Assembly (NCBI RefSeq): GCF_018919395.1 | Contig: NZ_JAHLME010000002.1 | Location: forward strand, 124,001 to 188,000 | Direction: 5' to 3' | DNA length: 64,000 nucleotides | From: Geomonas azotofigens | GTDB lineage: Bacteria > Desulfobacterota > Desulfuromonadia > Geobacterales > Geobacteraceae | Shown: positions 37,164 to 40,348 of the stretch, one piece after another | Numbering within the stretch: position 1 is the stretch's first letter | How the letters are laid out: each line of letters starts with the position of its first letter | The notes under the pieces: model-generated | Told to the model about the DNA's origin: nothing | The model's input: the letters and a program-made list of their open reading frames with translations, nothing else | The model's database searches: none | Made by a program: the position numbers and the translations under genes

Positions 37164-37967
37164 TTAGAGCCCGGAGGATTCGTAAGATTCTGCCACTTCT
37201 TTCACGCGCAGCAAGCGCCTGAGATCGGAACTCGCCAGGAGCCTGCGGTCCTCGATGCTGTCGATGAAGCCGCGCAGCATCCCCTTGGGCGCGGCCGGCA
37301 CAAAGGGGGAGGTGAGAAAGATGAGCGGCAAAAGGGGCTTGAGCAGCACGCGCTTTTGCTGCCAGCCACGCTGCAGGTGGTTGAAGACCCGGGTCAGATG
37401 CTCGGGCGGCAGCGACGCCGACTCCTCGCTTAGCTGCACCAGCGGCACGATTTCCCGCTCCAGCAGGGCATCGATACCGGCGACCGTGTCCCCGGCCGGT
37501 TCGATCCCTGCGGTCAGCGACGCCACCACCGACCAGCGCGGGAAGACGGCGCGGGCGTGCTCGAGGGAGCGCAAACGCTCCTCGGGTTGCCGGCCATGCT
37601 GGGCGGAGCGGGCATGGTCATAGGCGTGCAGCGGGATGTCGAGAATGTCCACGCCGGCGGCGTAGGCGCGCTCGATGAGCACCGGCGAGGGGCTGAAATC
37701 GATCCTCCCCACCAGGTGCGCCGAGAAATTCTTCTTGATCATGCGGGCGAGGCTTTCGGCGTTGGCGAAGTGCTCCTCGTCGCCGAAGCTGAGGTGGAAC
37801 AGCGCCGCGTTACTCTGGTAGTGGCTGTCGTACAGCGTCTCGATGGTCTGTCGCTCCGGCAGGTTCCCCCCCACGTAGAAGACGTTCTCTTCCCGCCGCA
37901 ATTGGTCGGCGGAATACGGGGAGGTGCGCGCCACAAGCTCCCGTATTTTTTTCTGGTCTATCCTCAT
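37164..37967 (-). CDS. Cysteine-free protein with radical-SAM-like barrel outline
   Basis: The 267-aa product has no cysteine at all, yet its middle looks like the second half of a radical SAM TIM barrel: YAAGVDILDIPLHAYD, then SVVASLTAGIEPAGDTVAG and a LLEREIVPLVQLS strand resemble BioB-like barrels (gloss: GLE-P and Pvl strands). The Cx3Cx2C loop is missing, and NVFYVGGNLPERQT stands in its place. There is a C-terminal hydrophobic stretch (LLPLIFLTSPFVP). It is therefore either a degenerate non-enzymatic relative or a different barrel. A GGAGGG site precedes the ATG. It is 49 bp upstream of the DASS gene. Confidence 0.6.
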   Translation of the reverse strand: MRIDQKKIRELVARTSPYSADQLRREENVFYVGGNLPERQTIETLYDSHYQSNAALFHLSFGDEEHFANAESLARMIKKNFSAHLVGRIDFSPSPVLIERAYAAGVDILDIPLHAYDHARSAQHGRQPEERLRSLEHARAVFPRWSVVASLTAGIEPAGDTVAGIDALLEREIVPLVQLSEESASLPPEHLTRVFNHLQRGWQQKRVLLKPLLPLIFLTSPFVPAAPKGMLRGFIDSIEDRRLLASSDLRRLLRVKEVAESYESSGL

Positions 37968-38369: not shown

Positions 38370-38807
38370 ATGATTTCTCGCATCGATCATCTCAACATCG
38401 TGGTACGCGACCTGGAAGCCGCCACCGCCTTCTTCGCGCTCCTCGGCTTCACCCCCGGCATCAGTTCCGGCCTCGACACCGACTTCCTCGAGAAGCTGAC
38501 CGGCGTGCGCTGCGCGGGAGGAAAGTTCACCGCCCTGCACCACGCGGGATCCGACCTCTCCATCGAACTACTGCAGTTCGACGCCGGCGGCGAACCCGAT
38601 GCCGGGACCGGCATCGCCAACCGCATCGGCCTGCGCCACCTTGCCTTCGCCGTCACCGACATAGAAGCCGAGGTGGTGCGGCTGCGCGATCATGGCGTGC
38701 AGTTCATCGGCGAGGTGCAGGTCTGGCAAAAGACCGGGAAAAAACTGATCTACTTCCACGGGCCTGAAGGGATACTGCTGGAACTCGCCCAGTACCCGAC
38801 GCCGTAA
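38370..38807 (+). CDS. VOC-family protein (methylmalonyl-CoA-epimerase-like)
   Basis: The 145-aa protein has two VOC modules with the usual metal ligands: H7 in RIDHLNIVVRDL, E in LSIELLQF, H in GLRHLAFAV and the final E in GILLELAQYP. The spacing is like that of methylmalonyl-CoA epimerases and glyoxalase-like dioxygenases; the substrate is open. The start at 38370 (MISRIDHLN) is chosen because conservation begins there; upstream residues are alanine/proline-rich leader. The DAC-like gene follows after 30 bp, so both share one transcript. Confidence 0.8.
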   Translation: MISRIDHLNIVVRDLEAATAFFALLGFTPGISSGLDTDFLEKLTGVRCAGGKFTALHHAGSDLSIELLQFDAGGEPDAGTGIANRIGLRHLAFAVTDIEAEVVRLRDHGVQFIGEVQVWQKTGKKLIYFHGPEGILLELAQYPTP

Positions 38808-38837: not shown

Positions 38838-40157
38838 ATGTCCATCAAGAACAAGACCCCGCGCCACCTGGCCGAATTCGTCTGCACCGAACTGCGCAAG
38901 CGCAAGGCCGCGGTACCGGATGACCAGGTCATCACCGAGCTGATGGAGACCATGTACTACTCCAGCCTCCGCACCGAGGAGTCGGAGCCGGTACTGTTCC
39001 ACATGGTCTTTCTCGATCCGAGCCAGCCCGACCCGAAGCCTCCGCGCAACCCGGCGCGCGACCGCTGGAGCTACATCCCCTTCGCCGACCCGATCCCCTT
39101 CACCGTCTCCAACGTGGTCAAGATCGCCAAGTCCACCGACCTGCGCACCTCCTCGTTCGTGATCTGGCCCGACCAACTGGACCAGCTCTACATCTGGGGG
39201 CTCGTCGACCAGCAAAACCGCTTCCACAAGTTCCTGAACCGCTCCGCCGAGGTCGAGGTGGAACGACCGGGGGTGTTCCAGGCCAGCGTCGAGGGGATCG
39301 GCATCATCGCGGTCTACATGCGCTACGAGAAAGTGGCGGAACTGAGGGTAAACGAGGTGATCCGCCATTCGCTCGACGTGTTCCGCGAGGGGCCGGTGCG
39401 CGAGCTGCTGACGCCGGGGATCCACCGGTTCCTGGCGGGGGTGCGCAGCCACATCCCCGACGACATCTACCAGACGCCCGGTGCCGGCGACGAGCTGCAC
39501 GCCCAACAGTGGATCTCGGTGCTGTGCCGTATCCTGCTCCGGATCCAGAAAATCAAGAACGGCGGCGCCATCCTGATCACGCCGCGGACCACGCCGGACG
39601 ACCTCAACGTAAAGTACGGCATCAACTACGACCGCCTGCCCACCTCGCTGCAGTCCAATGCCGTCACCAAGATAAAGTCGGACTACCTGGAGCGGCACCT
39701 GCTCGGCCACGGCGAAACCCGGCCCAAAGAACTCGCAACGGACCAGTTTCAGCAGTTGCGGCGCCTGGAGAAGGAGTTGCGGGCCAACAAGAACGAGATC
39801 GACGGCGTGATCTGGTTCATCGCCCTGCTGACGCGGGTGGACGGACTGGTGGTGATGGACCCCAACCTGGTGGTGCGCGGCTACGGCGTCGAGATCAAGA
39901 ACTGGCAGGAGCCGGACCAGGTCTTCGTCGCCACCGACCGCTTCGGCAGTGAGGCGAAGCTGCGCCCGGTCAACTACAACCACTTCGGGACCAGGCACCG
40001 CTCCATGATGCGCTACTGCTGCCAGAACCCCGGCAGTCTCGGCTTCGTGATCTCGCAGGACGGCGAGGTCCGCGTCATGACCCTGCTGGGCGAGCGGCTG
40101 GTGATGTGGGAGAACATCAAGCTGAAGTACTACAGCTACGCGTCCAAGAAGAAATGA
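38838..40157 (+). CDS. DisA_N-like (diadenylate-cyclase-fold) protein, putative DACNV-type
   Basis: The 439-aa soluble protein has at its C-terminus the outline of a DisA_N/CdaA nucleotide domain: GGAILITPR (242-250), VDGLVVMDPNLVVRGYGVEI (334-353) where DisA has DGA, and GTRHRSM (384-390) where DisA has the ATP-binding RHR, followed by LGFVISQDGEVRVM. The N-terminal half (WSYIPFADPIPFTVSNVVKIA...LYIWGLVD) looks like a related sensor module. Asp and RHR are kept, while DGA reads DGL. It may synthesise or bind a nucleotide such as c-di-AMP. There is no HhH or membrane part. It follows the VOC gene by 30 bp. Confidence 0.7.
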   Translation: MSIKNKTPRHLAEFVCTELRKRKAAVPDDQVITELMETMYYSSLRTEESEPVLFHMVFLDPSQPDPKPPRNPARDRWSYIPFADPIPFTVSNVVKIAKSTDLRTSSFVIWPDQLDQLYIWGLVDQQNRFHKFLNRSAEVEVERPGVFQASVEGIGIIAVYMRYEKVAELRVNEVIRHSLDVFREGPVRELLTPGIHRFLAGVRSHIPDDIYQTPGAGDELHAQQWISVLCRILLRIQKIKNGGAILITPRTTPDDLNVKYGINYDRLPTSLQSNAVTKIKSDYLERHLLGHGETRPKELATDQFQQLRRLEKELRANKNEIDGVIWFIALLTRVDGLVVMDPNLVVRGYGVEIKNWQEPDQVFVATDRFGSEAKLRPVNYNHFGTRHRSMMRYCCQNPGSLGFVISQDGEVRVMTLLGERLVMWENIKLKYYSYASKKK

Positions 40158-40261: not shown

Positions 40262-40348
40262 TCCCCCCTTTGCGAAGGGGGGACAGGGGGGATTTGCCTC
40301 TCCAAAATCAAAAGCAAATCCCCCTAAATCCCCCTTCGCAAAGGGGGA
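40262..40348. repeat. Long inverted repeat, family B
   Basis: Left arm TCCCCCCTTTGCGAAGGGGG followed by GGGGGGATTTGC (40262-40297) faces GCAAATCCCCC followed by CCCCCTTCGCAAAGGGGGA (40314-40348). Each arm is itself palindromic (CCCTTTGCGAAGGG). The 16-bp centre is AT-rich. It resembles the dispersed BIME/REP-type elements found in many genomes. It lies between the DAC-like gene and the MuiA-like gene. Confidence 0.85.

Follow-up and report, generated by a model that had tools for sequence, protein, structure and literature searches.

A DACNV protein with a divergent DAC domain of the DGL type in Geomonas azotofigens, a putative dinucleotide cyclase or nucleotide sensor

The window, a stretch of 64,000 nucleotides from the Geomonas azotofigens genome (4.97 Mb in 18 contigs), carries an open reading frame for a protein of 439 amino acids, the features of which are collected in Table 1. 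The frame and its motifs VDGLVV, GTRHRSM and FVISQDG are found at the coordinates given by a first-pass annotation, which had described a stand-alone protein with neither an HhH domain nor a membrane anchor. Both absences are borne out. A Pfam scan of the protein gave no match to an HhH family, and hydropathy analysis revealed no convincing membrane span and none of the N-terminal transmembrane helices of the CdaA type. The best 19-residue mean, 1.7, falls at residues 321-339, where a helix and a strand of the DAC domain are expected. The protein stands alone only in lacking HhH and membrane parts, however, as it possesses a probable N-terminal sensor domain of its own in an architecture that recurs in an alignment of 69 proteins. 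The nucleotide-binding half, formerly placed at residues 320-415, actually starts near residue 225 and takes in the GGAILI strand.

Table 1. Features of the DACNV-DAC gene and its upstream neighbour, with positions in the window
Feature	Position	Strand	Evidence
DACNV-DAC protein, clade A (DGL type), 439 aa	38838..40157	+	ORF, Pfam, relatives
DACNV probable sensor domain, residues 23-123	38904..39206	+	PF21751, E 2e-19, 70 bits, cut-off 27
Middle region without known family, residues 124-224; common to clades A and B	39207..39509	+	Pfam scan, clade comparison
Divergent DAC domain, residues 225-435	39510..40142	+	transitive homology, structure comparison, motif columns
GALI-like strand GGAILI, residues 242-247	39561..39578	+	alignment
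DGL (canonical DGA), residues 335-337	39840..39848	+	69-protein alignment
GTRHRSM (canonical GxRHRxA), residues 384-390	39987..40007	+	69-protein alignment
SQD (canonical SEE), residues 406-408	40053..40061	+	S 69/69, D 67/69
VOC/glyoxalase-like neighbour, 30 bases upstream	38370..38807	+	PF13669 E 1.4e-11, PF00903 E 4.6e-11

The VOC neighbour had been singled out as an unreported pairing. The pairing is real at this locus but limited to part of one genus. Among genes of clade A, the group of window-type proteins, a full-length VOC homologue precedes 10 of the 15 in-genus loci, with a fragment at one more, and none of the four loci outside the genus. A link of such limited range says little about function. 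The VOC gene was set aside as local synteny and is probably not a functional part of the system. No gene partner shared beyond close synteny was found for clade A outside the genus or for clade B, the group of paralogue-type proteins. Two other features lie nearby. Between the gene and a downstream DUF4139 gene lies an imperfect inverted repeat with 34-base arms (40264-40347), which may be a dispersed palindromic element. On the minus strand, positions 37164-37967 encode a 267-residue protein with synteny conserved across Geomonas. It matches radical SAM only below the threshold (E 0.07), lacks a CxxxCxxC motif and is perhaps a cluster-less radical-SAM-fold protein.

The N-terminal domain places the protein in the DACNV family well above the curated cut-off (Table 1), so the earlier guess of a DACNV-type protein was right. 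DACNV has its own Pfam entry, which calls it a probable sensor domain, and NCBI names proteins after it, so the DACNV-DAC kind is already known. The window protein has the arrangement of this kind, with DACNV followed by a DAC-like half containing D-G, GxRH and S(Q/E)D. In the Pfam scan, this half has no direct match to DAC/DisA_N (PF02457) at E up to 10. The genome encodes a paralogue (L003, contig C12, 449 aa) that matches DACNV at E 2.1e-29 and DAC at the cut-off, and is 25% identical to the window protein nearly end to end. Profiles of clades A and B align over their full length (hhalign E 2.6e-41), and clade B aligns with canonical DAC domains (E 8.6e-9). Clade A alone reaches P 6e-4 against DAC over just 14 columns, with a reversed-profile control of 0.15. 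The window protein is therefore assigned to DAC through the clade B profile chain, by a transitive but firm link. Among 30 family members, all 30 were matched by DACNV and 26 by PF02457 at E up to 1. In searches of solved structures, DACs were absent from the single-sequence and clade A profile results; a mixed profile ranked them at the top, yet with E values of 0.01-0.1.

Structure prediction and comparison with DisA, proposed as a check by the first-pass annotation, gave a divided answer. A de novo model of residues 216-439 was of low confidence (pLDDT 53, pTM 0.54), and a model of the whole protein, built with eight close relatives, was useless (pLDDT 40). Foldseek returned no match for the weak 216-439 model, but DAC enzymes occupied 11 of the 14 top rows when the same model was realigned with VIA-align. 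T. maritima DisA was the best row (Z 6.2, 3.8 Å over 110 residues), and the others included CdaM (Z 6.0, 2.5 Å over 63 residues), M. tuberculosis DisA and CdaA/DacA of several species. Since all Z scores are below 8, this comparison is supporting rather than decisive. The DAC-like fold is thus backed by transitive profile homology and, weakly, by the modelled structure. The lack of a DAC match in single-sequence searches would suit an accidental resemblance, with residues 320-415 drawn from an unrelated family, but the profile chain through clade B and the structure comparison render this hardly credible. The family and fold so assigned, a DACNV domain joined to a divergent DAC domain, are in our judgement very likely right.

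The motifs follow one another in the DAC order, as first claimed, but their spacing is non-canonical. The D to R distance is 51 residues in every one of the 18 clade A members and 32 in all 32 canonical DACs of the order; across DACNV-DAC members it is mostly 50, so that the DGA-RHR segment is longer by about 18 residues. The distance from GALI to DGA, read from the sequence of the window protein, is 92 versus 42 in canonical enzymes (about 50 extra), and the R to S spacing is 20 versus 19 in the CdaA type. As had been noted, the aspartate and RHR are kept and the alanine is replaced by leucine (D335-G336-L337 and G384-T385-R386-H387-R388); the third motif is S406-Q407-D408. The protein accordingly shows DGL in place of DGA and (I/V)SQD in place of (V/I)SEE.

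In L. monocytogenes CdaA, the ATP site comprises ten residues located in or near GALI, DGA, GxRHRxA and SEE (PMC7288161). Their equivalents were assigned by our own motif-based alignment. Across 69 aligned DACNV-DAC proteins, D335, G336, G384, H387 and S406 are invariant and R386 occurs in 68. D408, at the metal-ligand position, is found in 67, so the acid is retained though SEE has become SQD. Of 12 columns at least 95% conserved in the DAC-like region, six are equivalents of CdaA ATP-site residues (hypergeometric P 1.5e-6 with 69 relatives), and within clade A nine of the ten equivalents are invariant. The predicted ATP- and metal-contact positions are retained in the family. The last position of RHR is not one of these ten; elsewhere in the family it drifts to N, Q, H or C, but RHR is intact in all 18 clade A proteins. 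Two substitutions mark clade A throughout. The third residue of DGA is Leu in 18 of 18 members, compared with Ala in 49 and Cys in 2 of the 51 others, and the Ala of RHRxA is Met (RHRSM), also in 18 of 18. The closest published test found concerns M. tuberculosis DacA, in which RHR is essential, the G73A change in DGA keeps activity, and conversion of DGA to AAL yields insoluble protein (PMC3328451). The DGL clade is new within the known DACNV kind.

Clade A is set apart by a stem branch of 2.88 changes per column (SH-aLRT 100). Full-length copies are present in 15 Geomonas genomes, and a second family of the order adds four genomes with members at 37-40% identity. Among named relatives, the closest to the window protein belong to Geomonas species (92-95% identity). 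Values of dN/dS against relatives are low (0.06-0.34, Nei-Gojobori), which indicates that the gene is maintained by purifying selection. Three Geomonas genomes have clade B without A, and in second-family genomes A was found and B was not; the two clades therefore seem not to depend on each other. Of 395 genomes sampled from the phylum, 23 contain DACNV, which is also present on Bacteroidota plasmids, where the matches are two Hymenobacter records only. On the Hymenobacter volaticus plasmid (L130:7908-9150), two annotated ORFs apparently make up one interrupted DACNV gene, which may be a pseudogene or reflect a sequencing frameshift. No relatives were found in collections of phages and viral contigs. 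The G. azotofigens genome also holds two CdaA-type DACs (L001 and L002) and one PF07698 (PgpH-type) phosphodiesterase candidate; a search of the genome for a c-di-AMP riboswitch (RF00379) found none. The clade B paralogue (L003:469-1815 in G000:C12) has canonical DGA and RHR and, as read from the sequence, sits between UDP-sugar-dehydrogenase-like and glycosyltransferase-like genes.

Other proteins share parts of this design. DACNV proteins such as the clade B paralogue and Hymenobacter WP_243520307.1 resemble the window protein in their N-terminal domain, length, DAC-like half, D-G, GxRH and SQD motifs, and enlarged loops. However, they are only about 19-26% identical to it and mostly have DGA and RHRAA or RHRSA instead of DGL and RHRSM. 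The CdaA/DacA proteins L001 and L002 present the DAC motifs in the same order with a nearly equal R-S distance (19 versus 20), but they have DGA, SEE, a GALI-DGA distance of 42, a D-R distance of 32 and no DACNV. In structure, the weak model comes closest to DisA (T. maritima, M. tuberculosis), but the DAC domain of DisA is N-terminal and followed by HhH, and its DGA is canonical. DACNH-DAC proteins (PF21750) also combine a putative sensor with a divergent DAC half, yet their N-terminal family is another; one such protein from the same bacterial order (L147:1244-2413, genome G256) has RYN for RHR and SED for SQD. A 424-residue divergent DAC (L145:605-1879 in G098, with a like match, L146, in G320) scores below the cut-off (E 1e-4) and has no recognised sensor domain. 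It carries RTT for RHR with SQDG kept, and is likely a degenerate, non-catalytic DAC.

Selection has preserved RHR, which is essential in M. tuberculosis DacA (PMC3328451), together with the remaining contact positions; a cyclase is therefore favoured, with the scales about level. A genome that also encodes two CdaA-type cyclases and a PgpH-type candidate fits this reading. The mechanism as a whole, a soluble ligand-gated dinucleotide cyclase with a sensor and a divergent DAC domain, is evenly poised between right and wrong. DACNV and the middle region would form the N-terminal sensor, joined to the divergent DAC domain. Two DAC domains would meet head to head, each binding ATP and a divalent metal via Thr385, Arg386, His387, Ser406 and Asp408, with Asp335 acting at the ribose or at the partner's ATP. 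A ligand on the N-terminal part would switch the making of c-di-AMP or of a closely related molecule. The Ala to Leu change in DGA, the Ala to Met change in RHRxA and the enlarged DGA-RHR loop may adjust the rate or the choice of nucleotide without abolishing activity. Several points speak against a cyclase. DGL and RHRSM are fixed on a long stem branch, which fits a change of function too, SEE has become SQD, the clade A sequence misses DAC models, the structure model is weak, and two ordinary cyclases are present in the genome. No enzymatic data on DACNV proteins were found in the open-access literature. Catalysis by the window protein has roughly the chance of a coin toss.

Because of the two fixed motif changes, a non-catalytic sensor is nearly as likely as a cyclase, though we place it somewhat short of an even chance. 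The DAC-like half would bind ATP or c-di-AMP without synthesis, and its occupancy would report to, or be modulated by, the DACNV half. The changes from DGA to DGL and from RHRxA to RHRxM are fixed on one stem branch, two canonical cyclases are present in the genome, and RHR has been lost elsewhere, with RHN and RHQ in distant DACNV members, RYN in DACNH and RTT in another divergent DAC. However, pseudoenzymes usually lose some active-site contact residues, whereas every clade A member, even at 36-38% identity, retains Asp335, Thr385, Arg386, His387, Ser406 and Asp408.

A cyclase might also make another product, for example a dinucleotide that is mixed or contains guanine, since the stretch from DGA to RHR that contacts the base has been replaced here and has grown (D-R of 50-51 versus 32). 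In our hand alignment, the segment holding CdaA Leu88 appears to correspond to GYGVEI here. The adenine contact of Leu88 is made by its main chain, however (PMC7288161), and specificity could therefore survive a change of sequence. A different product is unlikely.

The five known classes of c-di-AMP synthase, as listed in a 2024 paper, are CdaA, DisA, CdaS, CdaM and CdaZ (PMC11066881), and DACNV-DAC proteins are not among them. In the open-access literature searched, no paper named DACNV or its sister domains. It is rather unlikely that DACNV-DAC proteins, and the DGL clade especially, constitute a soluble ligand-gated cyclase class apart from the five described, in which the base-binding loop has been rebuilt and the product may differ from c-di-AMP. 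Since the ATP and metal positions are kept, the family may represent either a putative dinucleotide synthase class or synthase-derived nucleotide sensors. The occurrence of DGA and DGL versions side by side in genomes such as that of Geomonas azotofigens would make a clean comparative assay possible.
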